Of a DNA stretch of 64,000 bases, positions 39,614 through 46,442 are shown piece after piece. This stretch comes from Acidobacteriota bacterium. Its GTDB lineage: Bacteria > Acidobacteriota > Terriglobia > Bryobacterales > Bryobacteraceae. The stretch is taken from the NCBI GenBank assembly GCA_025352795.1, contig JANXSF010000041.1, forward strand, positions 124,001-188,000, in the 5' to 3' direction. The notes below the pieces were generated by a model, which was not told where the DNA came from, did no database searches, and saw only the letters and a program-made list of their open reading frames with translations. How positions within the stretch are numbered: the first letter of the stretch is position 1; every line of letters begins with the position of its first letter. A program made the translations under genes and the position numbers.

Positions 39614-40465
39614 TCACTGCCCAGCCCGATGTTCAACCAACTGAATGGCTAATTTATCAGGACCCTCAATCATGGCCACCTTTACGCTTGTCCCTTTCAT
39701 TTTCTTAACGCCCGCTATCACGCGCACCCCGTCTTGCCGCAGCCTGGCTAACGTCGCTGACAAATCGGGAACCGCCAATCCCACATGATCCACGACCCGT
39801 CTTTGTGTGGAAACCAATTCCGTCCTGCCTTTCAAATATCCCAGCGGATAGATAATTACATTCACATCGCCAACCATGAAGCTCGCCGAAGGCCCAACTT
39901 GAAATTCGCGATACATGCGCTTCTCTCGTATCGGCGTACGGCCCGCAGAAGGCCACTTCACACCAAAGTGCTTCGCCCACCATTCTGCTGCTGCTAAAGG
40001 GTCAGCGCTGAATAAATGAAGATGTCCGAAGCGATGATGCGCCGCTGTATTCAATTCAATCAGCGCACCATCGGGTCCGCTGACGTAGGCGTAGTAAAAG
40101 CCCGGCACACGCGCCAAGTCGCTGATATCGGTCAATGGGGTATCGAATGGAGTGCCTTTTTCCAACTGCGCCGCATAGGTCTTTTTCATATCCTCTGCAC
40201 CCCAGCCAAAATGCCAGATTGCAGATTCAATGCTTGCCGCTGGAGCCTGCTTCACCTTGTTGAAGAGTAACCAGGATTTCTGAACCTTCACCGCATCCAC
40301 TTTGCCATCGAACTTGCCCCGCTCACAATCGAAGTGGGATGTATAAAAGCGCATGGCCGATTCAGGGTCGGTAGTGTTCAGTGCTAAATGGTGAAATTGC
40401 ACTTGGGCGTGCAGCGCGACGTTCAGAGTAGCGTGCAGGATAACAAGAGCCACCAGAGGGCGCAT
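39614..40465 (-). CDS. exported VOC/glyoxalase-fold protein
   Basis: A 283-residue protein with a signal peptide (residues 1-20) and two VOC beta-alpha-beta-beta-beta modules. The first starts FHHLALNTTDPESAMRFYTS and the second around DHVGLAVPDLSATLARLRQD. Metal-ligand-like histidines and a Glu (ALIELNT) are present in the first module, so a metal-dependent isomerase or dioxygenase is possible. The export signal is unusual for glyoxalase I. The start lies 3 bases after the DeoC-like gene stop, so they are cotranscribed. Confidence 0.82.
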   Translation of the reverse strand: MRPLVALVILHATLNVALHAQVQFHHLALNTTDPESAMRFYTSHFDCERGKFDGKVDAVKVQKSWLLFNKVKQAPAASIESAIWHFGWGAEDMKKTYAAQLEKGTPFDTPLTDISDLARVPGFYYAYVSGPDGALIELNTAAHHRFGHLHLFSADPLAAAEWWAKHFGVKWPSAGRTPIREKRMYREFQVGPSASFMVGDVNVIIYPLGYLKGRTELVSTQRRVVDHVGLAVPDLSATLARLRQDGVRVIAGVKKMKGTSVKVAMIEGPDKLAIQLVEHRAGQ

Positions 40466-40468
40466 GCG

Positions 40469-41239
40469 CTAAACCTCCGATGTTTTTAGTTGGGCTTCGG
40501 CTGCCTTAGCCTGCTCTGTCAGCCTCTTCTTCCACTCCCCAAGAATTGTTTCCGCAACGGTTGTGCCGATTCTGTCGCATCCCGCATCATACAACCGCAG
40601 AGCCTCATCCAGCGTGTTCGCTCCACTCGCTTGCAACTCTGCACGATCCCGCAGAATCTGGCGCAGCAGAATCAAGTCTTCCGTAGAGTATGGCGCGCCA
40701 GGACCAAATCCGGTGGAAGTCACCGCCACTGGCGTTTCTGTGCGCTTCAGAATTTTCGATAAGATGATTTTCCATTCATCCGTCAAAATTGCGCATTCAT
40801 AGATGATTTTTAGCGTGGCGCTATTCTGTCGACAAGAATCGGCCATCTGTAGAATTTCGGTCTCTATATGCTGGAACTGTCGCGATGCCAGCTTTCCCAC
40901 GTTCACCACCATACTCAGCTCGCCAGCCCCGCGACGCAACAGATCGCGACCCTCGTAAAGCTTCGTCGCTGTATTGGCCGATCCATGCGGAAAGCCCACC
41001 ACCGATCCAATCTTAACGGGAGAATTTCCCAAAATCCGTACCGCCGTATCCACATCCACCGGACGCACGCAGCAAGCGGCAACGCCCATTTCCCAGGCCA
41101 TGCGACACCCATCAATCACCTGATCTTCATTCAGAGTTGGAGCCAGTAATTGATGCTCCAACCTGTTTGCCAAATCAGCATAGGTGACCAGCGCTGGCCG
41201 TTCCGCAACCTGTATCACGGTTTCTTCGAGATGATCCAT
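40469..41239 (-). CDS. DeoC-fold protein lacking the aldolase catalytic residues
   Basis: A 256-residue TIM-barrel homologue of deoxyribose-phosphate aldolase. Family landmarks are aligned: LLAPTLNEDQVIDGC, VVGFPHGSANTATKL, YECAILTDE, VTSTGFGPGAPYSTED and ALRLYDAGCDRIGTT. But the three catalytic residues of E. coli DeoC are gone. The Schiff-base Lys167 (VKTSTGF) reads Val173, Lys201 (VKASGG) reads Gln203 and Asp102 reads Ser109. An ordinary aldolase mechanism is therefore improbable. ATG 41239 is chosen for GGGGA 5 bases upstream; it overlaps the CBM9-like gene by 25 bases. Function is unknown; a ligand-binding role is possible. A sequencing error cannot explain three separate changes. Confidence 0.75.
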   Translation of the reverse strand: MDHLEETVIQVAERPALVTYADLANRLEHQLLAPTLNEDQVIDGCRMAWEMGVAACCVRPVDVDTAVRILGNSPVKIGSVVGFPHGSANTATKLYEGRDLLRRGAGELSMVVNVGKLASRQFQHIETEILQMADSCRQNSATLKIIYECAILTDEWKIILSKILKRTETPVAVTSTGFGPGAPYSTEDLILLRQILRDRAELQASGANTLDEALRLYDAGCDRIGTTVAETILGEWKKRLTEQAKAAEAQLKTSEV

Positions 41240-42063
41240 AGCGTTCCCCATTGATTCATATTCGTACGCAGCTTCGGCGTGCCGGCGAACCAATCTTCAT
41301 GGTGCAAATTGCCGAAATTGCCCTTGCCCCGTTCCTTTTCATCTAAGTCACCCAGGGCAATGTTCAAACCCATTTTCCGATCACCCATGGCCGTAGAATA
41401 AAACTTTCCAGGTGAAACTTCCAGGCAGGGATCAAAATTAATAGCCCATTCAATAATGTAACCCTTGCCGCCCGGTTTTACCTTGGCCGCTGCTTCCATG
41501 GCCCCCGTTTCAATCCATTTGCGATAAGTGTTCCAAGCTGAATCGCTCTTGCGAGGTTCACCTTCCAGCAGTCCACCCTTGCCCACTCCGCCCAATCGTG
41601 ACTTAGTAAGGTTCACCACCATCTGCCAACTGGAGCCATCCCCACGGGCGCCTTCATCGCCCTTCCATTCATTGGACGCGTTGATCAGCAGTTCCATCTC
41701 ATCGCCGAACCAGGGGAAACCGTCTTGTGTCAGTTCATGCGCCTTGGGATTTTCGTCGGGTAACCAGCGCGGAGTATCAATCCCATAAAGCACGTCATCC
41801 GTCACATCGAATGCAAAATACAGGCGCTTGCCGTCATGTTTCACCCACCCTTTCACTGACAGATCTTTAGGACTTGTCGTTCGCGTGAACGTGGGGATCC
41901 ACTTACGATCACTGTGGAACTGAACCGCATCGGCCCATTCACCTGGGTCAAGCACGGCATCAATCTTAGGCTTCTTACCGGGGAATGCTTTTATTGTTCG
42001 GGGGAAATCACCAGCGAATGCTGGCTGTAGGAAAAACAGGATCACCAGGCAAATTCGCTTCAT
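41215..42063 (-). CDS. carbohydrate-binding family 9-like exported protein
   Basis: A 282-residue protein with a signal peptide (ending AFAGD) and a CBM9-like beta sandwich: KIDAVLDPGEWADAVQFH at the N-terminus, VKHDGKRLYFAFDVTDD in the middle and IEWAINFDP towards the C-terminus. CBM9 modules bind glycan ends; free-standing CBM9-like proteins are common in Planctomycetes and Acidobacteria. ATG 42063 lies in a TGATG overlap with the upstream cpoB-like stop; a GTG at 42066 is the alternative. It lies between the Tol-Pal block and the DeoC-like gene. Confidence 0.85.
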   Translation of the reverse strand: MKRICLVILFFLQPAFAGDFPRTIKAFPGKKPKIDAVLDPGEWADAVQFHSDRKWIPTFTRTTSPKDLSVKGWVKHDGKRLYFAFDVTDDVLYGIDTPRWLPDENPKAHELTQDGFPWFGDEMELLINASNEWKGDEGARGDGSSWQMVVNLTKSRLGGVGKGGLLEGEPRKSDSAWNTYRKWIETGAMEAAAKVKPGGKGYIIEWAINFDPCLEVSPGKFYSTAMGDRKMGLNIALGDLDEKERGKGNFGNLHHEDWFAGTPKLRTNMNQWGTLWIISKKP

Positions 42064-43007
42064 CACTTCCGTTTCTTTTTCGCCGCAGTGGGGGCCTGCC
42101 GCACGGGAGCCATTGCTATCAAGTCCACTCTGGCTTTAGCCGCACTGTCGCTATCTGCATATTTTGCAATCAATATTTTGAACTCGTTCCGCGCTTCTTC
42201 CTTCTGCCCAACTTTAGCTAACGCCCTGCCTTTTAACAGCATGGCATCGGGAATTTTCGTGTTCAAAGGGTAATCGTTGACGACTTTATCGAAGGTGGAA
42301 ATAGCGTTTTCATGATCACCACGCAAATAATAAATGGCTCCAATGTTATACAGCGCTGTTGGCGCTCTATCGGTTGTTCCATAGCATTTTACGTAGTCCT
42401 GAAATTCCTGAACGGCCAAGTCAGAATTTCCACTGGAACGGTCTCGCATGGCATTGTTGAACAACTGTTCTGCCGATGTTCCAGCGCACTCAGCGGGAGC
42501 ATTGGCCGATGCAGTAGGCTTTGATCCTGCTGCAACAGGCTGTTCCCCAACCGGAGCTACTGGAGGCGGAGGTGGTGCCAATTGCTTTTCGTTCATCACC
42601 TTTACCAGCCCCGTCAGATCCACCAACTGCCCCTGCATTTTGGCGATTTTCGATTCCAAGTCACGAACTGCTTCCCGCACTCCGCCAAAGTCACTGCCCA
42701 TGGCGTTTACTTTTTCACCCATCGACGCAATAGGCAAAGCCAATTGTTTATCTTGCAAGGCAAGCTTATCGGTCATTTTCGCTTCCAGCAGCGCCACCGC
42801 AGTGTTCGCTTTGTTGGTGGTCTCCAGAGTCTGCTTTAGCAGCACTTCCAGAGCAGCGAATTTTTCATCCTGACCGCGCTGCATAGATCGCATCTGATCT
42901 TGCAATAAGGCCACATCGCGCTGCAATTCGACATATTCTTTCTTCTGGCCATACCCGGCCTGAGGCAGAACAATCAGAGTAAGAAGGGCAAGGATTTTTA
43001 GATTCAT
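42063..43007 (-). CDS. cpoB: CpoB/YbgF-like Tol-Pal coordinator
   Basis: A 314-residue periplasmic protein. A signal peptide (residues 1-20) is followed by a coiled coil (about 25-140, LQRDVALLQDQMRSMQRGQ) and a proline-rich linker (APPPPPVAPVGE). The C-terminal TPR domain (AEQLFNNAMRDRSSGNSDLA, TALYNIGAIYYLRGDHENA) continues to the end and finishes in a basic tail (KKKRK). CpoB links Tol with cell-wall synthesis in division in E. coli, where it is the last gene of tol-pal, as here. It follows pal after 57 bases. Confidence 0.86.
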   Translation of the reverse strand: MNLKILALLTLIVLPQAGYGQKKEYVELQRDVALLQDQMRSMQRGQDEKFAALEVLLKQTLETTNKANTAVALLEAKMTDKLALQDKQLALPIASMGEKVNAMGSDFGGVREAVRDLESKIAKMQGQLVDLTGLVKVMNEKQLAPPPPPVAPVGEQPVAAGSKPTASANAPAECAGTSAEQLFNNAMRDRSSGNSDLAVQEFQDYVKCYGTTDRAPTALYNIGAIYYLRGDHENAISTFDKVVNDYPLNTKIPDAMLLKGRALAKVGQKEEARNEFKILIAKYADSDSAAKARVDLIAMAPVRQAPTAAKKKRK

Positions 43008-43064: not shown

Positions 43065-43856
43065 TTAATTGCCGCTAAAGTGCGCGCGGCGGTTTTTTTG
43101 ATAGCAATCTTCGGTCGCATCAGTGCATTGCGGCCTCTCTTTGCCATAGCTAACAGTGCGAAGCCGGTCAGCCCCCAAGCCCAATTGCTGCAGAAAATCT
43201 TTCGCAGCCAAAGCGCGGCGGTCACCCAACCCCAAATTATATTCAGCCGAACCGCGTTCGTCGCAATGCCCTTCAATCGTCAGCATGTTCGACGGGTAGT
43301 CCGCCAAAATCGCTTTCAACTTATCAGAATTGCGCGTCAATACGCTTCGACCATTTTCGTTGATATCACTCTTATCGTAATCAAACGTGACGTCAGCCAG
43401 TTCACGGGAAACCAAGGTTGTGAAATCTTCCTTTACTTTGGCTGGCGCAACCACTGGCGGCGGTGGCGGATCACTTACCGTTACCGTCGCACTGGATTCC
43501 GCTGTTCCCCCCGCACCTTCAGCAACCAACCGGTAGGTGGTTGTGGAACCCGGGAAAACGGCTCGGCTGCCATCCATTGCTGTTACTTCCCCCACACCTG
43601 GCGTGATAGTCACTTTAGTTGCGTCCTTCACGGACCACTTCAGTGTGGAAGAATTTCCCTTCTCAATGGCCGATGGTTCAGCGGTGAAACTGCTGATGGT
43701 CGGCCTAGAGAGCTTGGGAGCCTCTACCTTAGGAGCTATTTCTACTTTGTGGGGTGGGGCTGGAGGAGCTACTGCTCCAATCTTTTTCTTGCATCCAGCG
43801 CCCGTCAATACTAATGAGAGTGTTAGGGCAATCAATCCCAAACTTTTTCTATTCAA
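43065..43856 (-). CDS. pal: Pal-like peptidoglycan-associated lipoprotein (OmpA domain)
   Basis: A 263-residue lipoprotein. The lipobox LTGAGC puts the lipidated Cys at about residue 22. An Ig-like domain (about 50-130, SFTAEPSAIEKGNSSTLKWS) is inserted before the C-terminal OmpA domain (about 145-262), whose diaminopimelate-binding site TIEGHCDERGSAEYNLGLG is intact. Pal tethers the outer membrane to peptidoglycan and contacts TolB. Normal Pal is about 170 residues; the extra domain here explains the length. It lies 33 bases after tolB. Confidence 0.88.
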   Translation of the reverse strand: MNRKSLGLIALTLSLVLTGAGCKKKIGAVAPPAPPHKVEIAPKVEAPKLSRPTISSFTAEPSAIEKGNSSTLKWSVKDATKVTITPGVGEVTAMDGSRAVFPGSTTTYRLVAEGAGGTAESSATVTVSDPPPPPVVAPAKVKEDFTTLVSRELADVTFDYDKSDINENGRSVLTRNSDKLKAILADYPSNMLTIEGHCDERGSAEYNLGLGDRRALAAKDFLQQLGLGADRLRTVSYGKERPQCTDATEDCYQKNRRAHFSGN

Positions 43857-43889: not shown

Positions 43890-45230
43890 CTATTTACTCC
43901 ACACCGGCATTTCATTTCTGCCGGCACTGGTTAACTGCCGCACTTGCGTCCCATCGGCCAGCATGGAATAAATCTGCATGCGACCCGACCGATTAGAAGC
44001 AAACGCGATATGCCGTCCGTCTGGTGCCCATGATGGGTTCTCGTTCCGTCCGGCTCCGTGCGTGAGCTGCACAAATTTTCTATCTGCTACGTCCATTATA
44101 AAGACATTGAAGTTACCGGGTTGAAATCCCATTGTCCAGGAAAATGCAACGTACGCCCCATTGGGATGCCAACTGGGATTAGAAACTTGTCCTTCCCCAG
44201 TGCTCATTCTTTCTACATCCGTTCCTTCAATACTCATACGATAAAGTTGTTGTGGCCCGCCGCGGCCTGAAATAAACATTACATCCGATCCAGTTTTAGG
44301 ATTGATCTTCGCCTCAACATCAATGAAGCGCCCCGAGGTCAACCGTTTAATGTTTCCTCCGTTCAAATCCGCACCGTATAAATTCGGGTATCCACCCACG
44401 CTCGATGAGTAAATAACCCGCTTGCCGTCGGGCGCAAAGGATAGATTGGAGTTCATGGATGCCTGCTGATTGAAGAACGGCAATATTCGATTCGTCTCAG
44501 CCGAATGCACAATAATCTGCGGCAATCCACTCAAGTAACTAGTGAAGGCCAAGCGCGAACCGTCCGGTGCGACGGACGGCATAGTGGTGATGGTCTTATA
44601 AACGGTCACCTGCTTTTCATTCTGCCCATCATAATCCATGGACCAGATTTCCTTGGTGCCAGAGCGCGTCGAGACAAAGAATATCTTCGATCCATAGAGT
44701 CCCTCTACACCAAATAGTTTCAGAATATCAGCAGCGAATTCATGGGCTACTTTGCGAGCCCCAACATCGTTCAAAGAGCCCAGGTACGTTTTCCCAATCA
44801 TCTGGGCATTGGTCAAATCTGGCTGCTTCACGTTATACAACCAGCCGTACAAAACGAACTGTCCGTTCGATTCCGCAGCATAACCAAACGTCAAATAATT
44901 CGCACTCACCGGTGGATTGGCCCAGCCCGTCAGCCACAACCCCGTTGGTTGGGCATTTTCAGCAGGCTTCTGGAAATCCTGCGGACGCTGCGGAACTTGA
45001 ATTGGATAGTTGCTCTTCGGTGCCATCTTGAACGAACCCGAAGTTTCAAGGTCAGCATACAGCGTGCTGTTGAAGACACTCATCAACGCCTGCGCCCCGC
45101 CGGAACCGCGCAGGTCGGGCACAGCGATCACTGGTCGAACTCCGCCAGTTAGTTTTCCAACGAAATCACTTTCTTGCGCCCATCCGACAAGTGCGCAAAC
45201 TCCAAGTGTGATCAGTAATTTTTTCTTCAT
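43890..45230 (-). CDS. tolB: Tol-Pal system protein TolB
   Basis: A 446-residue periplasmic protein. After a signal peptide (to about residue 18) comes the TolB N-terminal domain (AVPDLRGSGGAQALMSVFNS, then VLYGWLYNVKQP). A six-bladed propeller follows, of PD40 repeats such as IWSMDYDGQNEKQVTV, MPSVAPDGSRLAFTSYLSG and NPSWAPDGRHIAFASNRSG. It shuttles between TolA and Pal. The start overlaps the tolA stop in an ATGA; order and length are normal. Confidence 0.92.
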   Translation of the reverse strand: MKKKLLITLGVCALVGWAQESDFVGKLTGGVRPVIAVPDLRGSGGAQALMSVFNSTLYADLETSGSFKMAPKSNYPIQVPQRPQDFQKPAENAQPTGLWLTGWANPPVSANYLTFGYAAESNGQFVLYGWLYNVKQPDLTNAQMIGKTYLGSLNDVGARKVAHEFAADILKLFGVEGLYGSKIFFVSTRSGTKEIWSMDYDGQNEKQVTVYKTITTMPSVAPDGSRLAFTSYLSGLPQIIVHSAETNRILPFFNQQASMNSNLSFAPDGKRVIYSSSVGGYPNLYGADLNGGNIKRLTSGRFIDVEAKINPKTGSDVMFISGRGGPQQLYRMSIEGTDVERMSTGEGQVSNPSWHPNGAYVAFSWTMGFQPGNFNVFIMDVADRKFVQLTHGAGRNENPSWAPDGRHIAFASNRSGRMQIYSMLADGTQVRQLTSAGRNEMPVWSK

Positions 45231-46000
45231 CGTTTTAATTCAAACCAAAACTCTATTGTGGCTGAATCCCTTTCAAATTGCCGAGGTAGTTCTGGAAACG
45301 GTGCGGCTTCCTGGATAGCTCTTAGCGCCGAATAATCCAGCGCGGGAATGCCGCTGGGCTGAACGATTCGCGCATTGCGTATGGAACCGTCCCGTAATAT
45401 CTCAAATTTCACAATCGCCGGGTTGCTGGTTTTCAGAGATGGACTGATTTCATCCTGCCGCCAATGTTCCGATATTCGTTGCCGCAACAGTTCCGCATAC
45501 CAGCCAAATCTTAAGCCCAGTGGTGCGTTCGGCCCAATGCCAATTCCGCCACCACCAATCTGTTTGAAAATCGGTGAAACAGTCGCCTGTCCCACTGACG
45601 AACTCACACGATTGGGATCAGGGTTAGCGTTGGCCATGGTGGCTGGGGTCCGCTCTTTGCGCTTGCTCGGCTTATCGTCAAGCACAATGCCATCATCGTC
45701 GAACAGCTTCTTCTCTATCGGCTTCTTCTTTTCTTTCTCTTCCGGGGCACGCTCAATTTCCGATTCCGTATCATCAGCTACCGGATTCACACGCCCCTGC
45801 CTTTGCGCAATGTTGATTGATTTCACAACTTGAACAGAATAGGCACCAGCACCGGGATTTTCCTCGCCAAACGTTTCCACGGATCGCACTCGCCACCATG
45901 CAAACCCTAATGCAAGTAAGGCCAAAGTGACATGCAGGGTTAACGAAACCGCCAACGGGTTTCGTAAATTTTCCTCGTAATTAGCGCTTCCGTGGGGCAT
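45227..46000 (-). CDS. tolA: TolA/TonB-like periplasmic bridge protein
   Basis: A 257-residue protein with one N-terminal transmembrane segment (residues about 15-36, LAVSLTLHVTLALLALGFAW) and a charged linker (ESEIERAPEEKEKKKPIEKK). A C-terminal TonB/TolA-type domain (ISEHWRQDEISPSLKTSNPA, then SIRNARIVQPSGIPALDYSA) ends in an aromatic strand. It should transmit energy from TolQR to the outer membrane. It has the compact TonB-like form rather than the 400-residue TolA of E. coli. It overlaps tolR by 20 bases and tolB by 4. Confidence 0.83.
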   Translation of the reverse strand: MPHGSANYEENLRNPLAVSLTLHVTLALLALGFAWWRVRSVETFGEENPGAGAYSVQVVKSINIAQRQGRVNPVADDTESEIERAPEEKEKKKPIEKKLFDDDGIVLDDKPSKRKERTPATMANANPDPNRVSSSVGQATVSPIFKQIGGGGIGIGPNAPLGLRFGWYAELLRQRISEHWRQDEISPSLKTSNPAIVKFEILRDGSIRNARIVQPSGIPALDYSALRAIQEAAPFPELPRQFERDSATIEFWFELKR

Positions 46001-46442
46001 CGTCAGCTGTTTGTGTCACCAGACGGACATCGTATTTTGCGTTGCCCAGCGCACTGACCACTTGCGCCAAACCATCCCAGGTAGTGGCTTTGTCTGCTCG
46101 CACAAAAACAGCCTTGTCTTTGGGAAAACGTTTCTTGATGGCAGCGCCCAGTTCATTAATGTTCACCGGTTTTTCATTCAATTGCAGGTTGCCCGTGCGA
46201 GCCACCGTAACCACTGGTAAATCCTGTGCCGATTTCGAACTTTGTTGGGCAACTTTGGGGACGTCCACTTCCAGTCCATATTCCACCACGTGCGCCGTCA
46301 ACATAAAAATGATCAGCAACACCAGCACCACGTCTACCAATGGGATGATGTTGATCTCACTCATCTCACCCATAGAACTACGGCTGCCTCGCCTTCTGCC
46401 TGTCATGTTGCCGCCGCTTGAACCGCCATTGGAGAATGCCAT
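45981..46442 (-). CDS. tolR: ExbD/TolR family protein
   Basis: A 153-residue inner-membrane protein. A Gly/Ser/Arg-rich cytoplasmic tail (to about residue 26) precedes the single transmembrane helix with the conserved proton-carrying Asp in INIIPLVDVVLVLLIIFML. The periplasmic domain follows (VEYGLEVDVPKVAQQSSKS; RFPKDKAVFVRADK). With TolQ it forms the proton-driven motor. The gene begins 1 base after tolQ stop, so translation is coupled. Confidence 0.9.
   Translation of the reverse strand: MAFSNGGSSGGNMTGRRRGSRSSMGEMSEINIIPLVDVVLVLLIIFMLTAHVVEYGLEVDVPKVAQQSSKSAQDLPVVTVARTGNLQLNEKPVNINELGAAIKKRFPKDKAVFVRADKATTWDGLAQVVSALGNAKYDVRLVTQTADDAPRKR

Follow-up and report, generated by a model that had tools for sequence, protein, structure and literature searches.

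The deoC2 locus and its tol-pal context

The window analysed here, a 64,000-nucleotide stretch of a Bryobacteraceae contig, carries a gene for a DeoC-like protein, termed deoC2, at the downstream end of a tol-pal gene cluster (Table 1). The deoC2 frame is uninterrupted from its ATG start through 256 codons. The CBM9-like gene overlaps its start by 25 nt, and a gene for a VOC protein begins 3 bp past its stop. The initial annotation had identified the neighbourhood correctly; tolB, pal, cpoB/ybgF and the CBM9-like gene lie upstream and the VOC gene downstream. The VOC protein has a signal-peptide-like N terminus and is probably exported.

Table 1. Features of the deoC2 locus in the window
Feature	Position	Strand	Details	Basis
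VOC (glyoxalase-fold) protein	39614..40465	-		PF00903, 62.8 bits
deoC2, probable DeoC-fold pseudo-aldolase	40469..41239	-	256 aa	ORF, TIGR00126, AlphaFold2/Foldseek
Codon 203	40631..40633	-	CAA, Gln; replaces second Lys (E. coli K201)	Alignment and codon
Codon 173	40721..40723	-	GTG, Val; replaces Schiff-base Lys (E. coli K167)	Alignment and codon
DeoC2 signature region	40832..41065	-	R59 D62 D64 A66 R68 Y95 R98 D99 R102 R103 R120 F122 E128 Q131 C136
Codon 109	40913..40915	-	AGT, Ser; replaces catalytic Asp (E. coli D102)	Alignment and codon
CBM9-like exported protein	41215..42066	-		PF06452, 23.7 bits, just above cut-off 23.4; synteny
cpoB/ybgF	42063..43007	-	TPR periplasmic tol-pal protein; follows pal	TIGR02795, 79 bits, below cut-off 90.1; synteny
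pal, by sequence	43065..43856	-	OmpA-like C terminus	ORF and synteny
tolB	43890..45230	-	Strong match in 24/24 genomes searched	ORF
tolA-like	45227..46000	-		ORF and synteny
tolR/exbD-like	45981..46442	-		ORF and synteny

Of 80 deoC2 loci of up to 14 kb each, 69 resemble the window in having deoC2 on the strand of cpoB and downstream of it, often only a few tens of bases away; the other 11 loci have no cpoB match, some of them since the contig ends. The usual order is tolR-tolA-tolB-pal-cpoB-(CBM9-like)-deoC2. This position points to an overlooked tol-pal operon gene in one group of soil and freshwater bacteria. A fused gene for type I dehydroquinase and shikimate dehydrogenase (AroDE) is present in 47 of the 80 loci, typically directly after deoC2 (e.g., L173:5077-6639, minus strand). 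The window locus has the VOC gene in its place, and the window genome is the only one in the sample in which a VOC gene adjoins deoC2. No deoC2 remnant was found in 20 tol-pal loci from genomes without a DeoC2 hit, three of which are too short to judge, and in most of the 20 cpoB is present and deoC2 absent. Since the gene is cleanly absent from such loci, deoC2 is not essential to Tol-Pal.

The CBM9-like gene lies between cpoB and deoC2 in the window and in many relatives. It is also found after cpoB in L186 and L199, two genomes that lack deoC2, and may represent a second accessory gene for tol-pal.

The window protein scores 132.4 bits against NCBIfam TIGR00126 (deoC), above the cut-off of 117.3, and a Pfam search returned no family. 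Its best solved relatives are all deoxyribose-phosphate aldolases (DERA, EC 4.1.2.4), matched down to 7.5e-35, and the closest of them are about 30–35% identical to it. An AlphaFold2 model built with 45 sequences (the window protein and relatives) has a mean pLDDT of 95.7. With Foldseek the model superposes on DERAs from Bacillus halodurans, Entamoeba, and Geobacillus with TM 0.92–0.94 (by target length) and rmsd 1.3–1.6 Å; the fold is common to it and DERA (6d33, 8qps, 3ngj, and 1jcl; TM 0.94, rmsd 1.3 Å). By both family-level score and structural comparison the protein is a DeoC-type TIM barrel, and it is a clear DeoC homologue.

Catalytic residues and their repeated loss in the DeoC2 family

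In E. coli DERA, the covalent adduct forms on Lys167, while Asp102 and Lys201 act in proton transfer (PMC8403123). Alignment of the window protein with E. coli DeoC and about 130 relatives, together with its codons, places Val173 at the Schiff-base position on strand 6 and Ser109 and Gln203 at the two proton-relay positions. The claim made at first reading, that all three catalytic residues are replaced, is borne out. The accompanying statement that the surrounding motifs are intact holds for the TSTGF stretch and fails elsewhere: the GG of the VKASGG phosphate motif has become GA (the second Gly is Ala207), the equivalent of E. coli R207 is N208, and the equivalents of Asp16 and Thr18 are E28 and Q30. 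Cys57 (C47 in E. coli) and Lys144 (K137) are retained. Orthologues with the same triple, which the initial annotation had proposed to look for, do occur. The protein of a sister species (G001, L106; also L015) is 67% identical and has the same Ser/Val/Gln combination, and the next-nearest relatives have Glu at the Schiff-base position, which together exclude a sequencing error.

The alignment columns were examined for another barrel lysine that could stand in for the lost one, and the idea was rejected, as none of the columns gains Lys in the DeoC2 members that lack the Schiff-base lysine. Lys144, the only other conserved barrel lysine, is itself gone in about 30% of these members. Besides deoC2, the genome (6.05 Mb) has a single TIGR00126 match (C134:38715-39347, 270 bits), whose triad is intact, so the cell appears, by sequence, to have an ordinary DeoC still.

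The equivalog model TIGR00126 passes its cut-off on a protein that has none of the catalytic triad residues.

A collection drawn from the genome's family (237 genomes), relatives, and named genomes gave 101 distinct DeoC2 proteins. In a quick tree with SH-aLRT support they form one clade (97%), with canonical DeoC and a third paralogue next to it. DeoC2 is a Bryobacterales-specific DeoC paralogue, and its named matches are Acidobacteria MAGs, including Candidatus Sulfopaludibacter (Bryobacterales; Solibacteraceae in the NCBI taxonomy). A candidate from outside the order was rejected: the nearest match, L205, is 56% identical to a lysine-bearing member and has RPxD, but not the remaining DeoC2 signature described below. 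The third paralogue (L058, L062, L064, and other loci) has CIxPYY and ELDMVVNIS motifs and an intact catalytic triad, and is widespread in the same family.

The Schiff-base lysine is absent from 66 of the 101 DeoC2 proteins and kept in 35. The window protein and its sister belong to a clade of 20 rows (98%), none of which carries this lysine. Parsimony on the lysine state gives 10 changes, or 13 on the set without long branches, of which the starred branches force at least 4–6. Forcing all lysine-less members together made the tree 275 log units worse, and a single common loss was rejected by the AU test (p 6e-85). The residues found at the vacated site are V, E, Q, S, C, R, T, G, A, and L, and sister pairs with and without the lysine (L149/L126 and L153/L152) indicate recent losses. 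Inspected by eye, these loci, many of whose contigs end early, showed no clear pattern linking lysine loss to the CBM9-like gene or AroDE being present.

Some Bryobacterales DeoC2 proteins (L117, L116, and L120) share operon position and signature with the window protein at about 50% identity but, unlike it, retain Asp/Lys/Lys; no characterised member was found among the lysine-bearing paralogues. Such syntenic orthologues in other genera refine the original claim rather than refute it, because the tree has them retaining the ancestral state and the loss occurring repeatedly. The family offers many natural replicates of the conversion of an enzyme to a pseudoenzyme at a fixed chromosomal place, with orthologues on both sides of the change, and what selection keeps once catalysis is lost becomes directly testable with DeoC2.

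Selection and the conserved helix 2-4 patch

Pairwise dN/dS values (NG86, stop-to-stop frames) within lysine-less clades, which are rough estimates, are mostly 0.03–0.16, similar to those that cpoB, tolB, and pal show in these genomes. The window protein and its sister give 0.12, a rough value as pS is 0.69 and near saturation. Some lysine-less pairs have 0.17–0.39, and those at 0.2–0.39 suggest relaxed constraint in a few lineages. The lysine-less clades are under purifying selection, far from neutrality; the intact frame and low dN/dS rule out a pseudogene. The catalytic residues have been lost while the predicted fold was kept and the gene retained under selection, as in a pseudoenzyme. The predicted fold and purifying selection give good support to the earlier view that the fold was kept and the chemistry given up.

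A set of 18 residues characterises DeoC2. Fifteen of them lie in the region given in Table 1, mainly on helices 2–4, and L23, R166, and W236 lie outside it. The window protein has all 18. The 66 lysine-less members each keep 15–18 (mean 16.9) and the lysine-bearing members average 17.1, compared with 2.1 in canonical DeoC and 0.8 in the third paralogue. DERA is without the signature, and the window protein is without the Schiff-base lysine, the second lysine, and the catalytic aspartate. The signature was chosen partly for its conservation in the lysine-less members, so sites chosen on lysine-bearing members only provide a fairer test: in lysine-less members thinned to below 60% identity, 16 such sites are kept at 0.86, whereas the figure for 45 universal DeoC sites is 0.63 (Mann-Whitney p 0.0015).

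The active site has fared differently from the signature. Eleven active-site residues are complete in canonical DeoC and average 5.4 in lysine-less members, reaching 0 of 11 in the extremes L144 and L161; the fold is predicted even for L144 (pLDDT 92.2). Around the former Schiff-base site (residues 169–200), 0.42 of universal residues are kept in lysine-less members, compared with 0.91–0.97 of the signature residues in the helix 2–4 regions.

In the E. coli type of DERA dimer, K58 sits across from D82, and A95 and A95' come together close to the two-fold axis; helices 5–7, which flank the catalytic strands, are on the side opposite the dimer interface (PMC4725968). The window residues aligned with K58 and A95 are R68 and R102, respectively, and both belong to the signature. 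By this mapping the invariant face is the dimer-interface side and the eroded face is the catalytic side. Together with the secondary structure, the mapping suggests that the patch is exposed and serves as an interaction surface, for either an altered dimer or a contact with a partner. Residues R59, D62, D64, S119, R120, and F122 are in barrel-mouth loops and could line a pocket instead.

Possible functions of DeoC2

We consider it reasonably probable that DeoC2 is a cytosolic pseudo-aldolase, selected for an assembly or binding surface on helices 2–4 and not for aldol chemistry, because the catalytic side has been lost repeatedly while the helix 2–4 surface was fixed. The DeoC2 ancestor would have been an ordinary Schiff-base aldolase, judging from sequence. 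Its catalytic side (strands beta6–beta8) probably became dispensable and was lost many times, while a new surface on helices 2–4, including positions of the E. coli DERA dimer interface, became fixed. This surface might serve to build a modified homodimer or to bind a partner protein, a function required together with the Tol-Pal envelope machinery. Against this reading stand the Tol-Pal loci without deoC2, the pairs with elevated dN/dS, the 35 members that keep the lysine, and the signature residues in the mouth loops.

A more specific version, in which DeoC2 is an accessory pseudoenzyme of Tol-Pal that docks on a cytosolic partner by its former dimer face, catalysis having been discarded about 10 times as irrelevant there, is put forward tentatively. 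Synteny, the one basis for a Tol-Pal role, is suggestive of it. The E. coli tol-pal operon includes YbgC, a thioesterase that, like DeoC2, is cytosolic and outside the tol-pal core (PMC7391070). YbgC, unlike the probable pseudo-aldolase of the window, is an active enzyme. Its fold is unrelated to that of DeoC2, and ybgC occupies the opposite end of the operon. DeoC2 also resembles the regulatory pseudoenzymes, which have lost catalytic residues, keep the fold, and act by scaffolding or allostery; the text of the review describing them leaves aldolases unmentioned, and no tie to Tol-Pal was seen in it (PMC10211241). Among the papers searched we found no earlier description of a DeoC2 pseudo-aldolase, no paper joining deoxyribose-phosphate aldolase, tol-pal, and Acidobacteria or Bryobacteraceae and Tol-Pal, and nothing combining pseudoenzyme, aldolase, and TIM barrel; pseudoenzyme and the aldolase occurred together in just one paper, on microcompartments.

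The initial annotation had proposed a new enzyme or a ligand sensor, and both are weakened, as erosion across the family is greatest around the active site and the clade-specific helix 2–4 patch is almost invariant. Its observation is confirmed and its interpretation partly supported. A barrel running another reaction through other residues, such as Lys144 or a new mouth pocket of R59, D62, D64, and R120, is unlikely. The motifs R59-P60-x-D62-x-D64 and S119-R120-x-F122, which follow strands 2 and 4, are nearly invariant and adjoin an invariant P84-x-G86 after strand 3, so that half of the mouth is conserved, and Lys144 is present in the window protein. However, the residue at the lysine site varies freely, no new lysine is gained, Lys144 is often missing from lysine-less members, the residues of strands 6–8, including the phosphate-binding loops, erode fully in some members, and much of the signature is on helices far from the mouth.

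Slightly less credible is a sensor whose pocket would still hold a sugar phosphate or an aldehyde, leave it unconverted, and signal to the envelope system. The predicted fold is intact, and the window clade and several others keep the TST loop and some of the K203/GG region, but shared sensing should keep the pocket conserved and it is the Schiff-base region that is least conserved in lysine-less members.

Slow decay of a redundant paralogue, without a function of its own and held only by its place in the operon (e.g., by translational coupling), appears improbable. In its favor, an intact DeoC exists elsewhere in the genome, other genomes of the family cleanly lack the gene downstream of cpoB, and some pairs have higher dN/dS. 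On the other hand, dN/dS is low in most pairs of the large lysine-less clades, frames are intact in nearly all copies, and the persistence of the 18-residue signature through at least 10 changes of catalytic state is unexpected under drift.

An ordinary deoxyribose-phosphate aldolase, as the NCBI model name would have it on an above-cut-off TIGR00126 score, is highly improbable, as all three catalytic residues are gone and one of them corresponds to the Schiff-base Lys167 of E. coli DERA (PMC8403123). The aldolase label that TIGR00126 would give the window protein is almost surely wrong, and the model is a likely source of misannotation.
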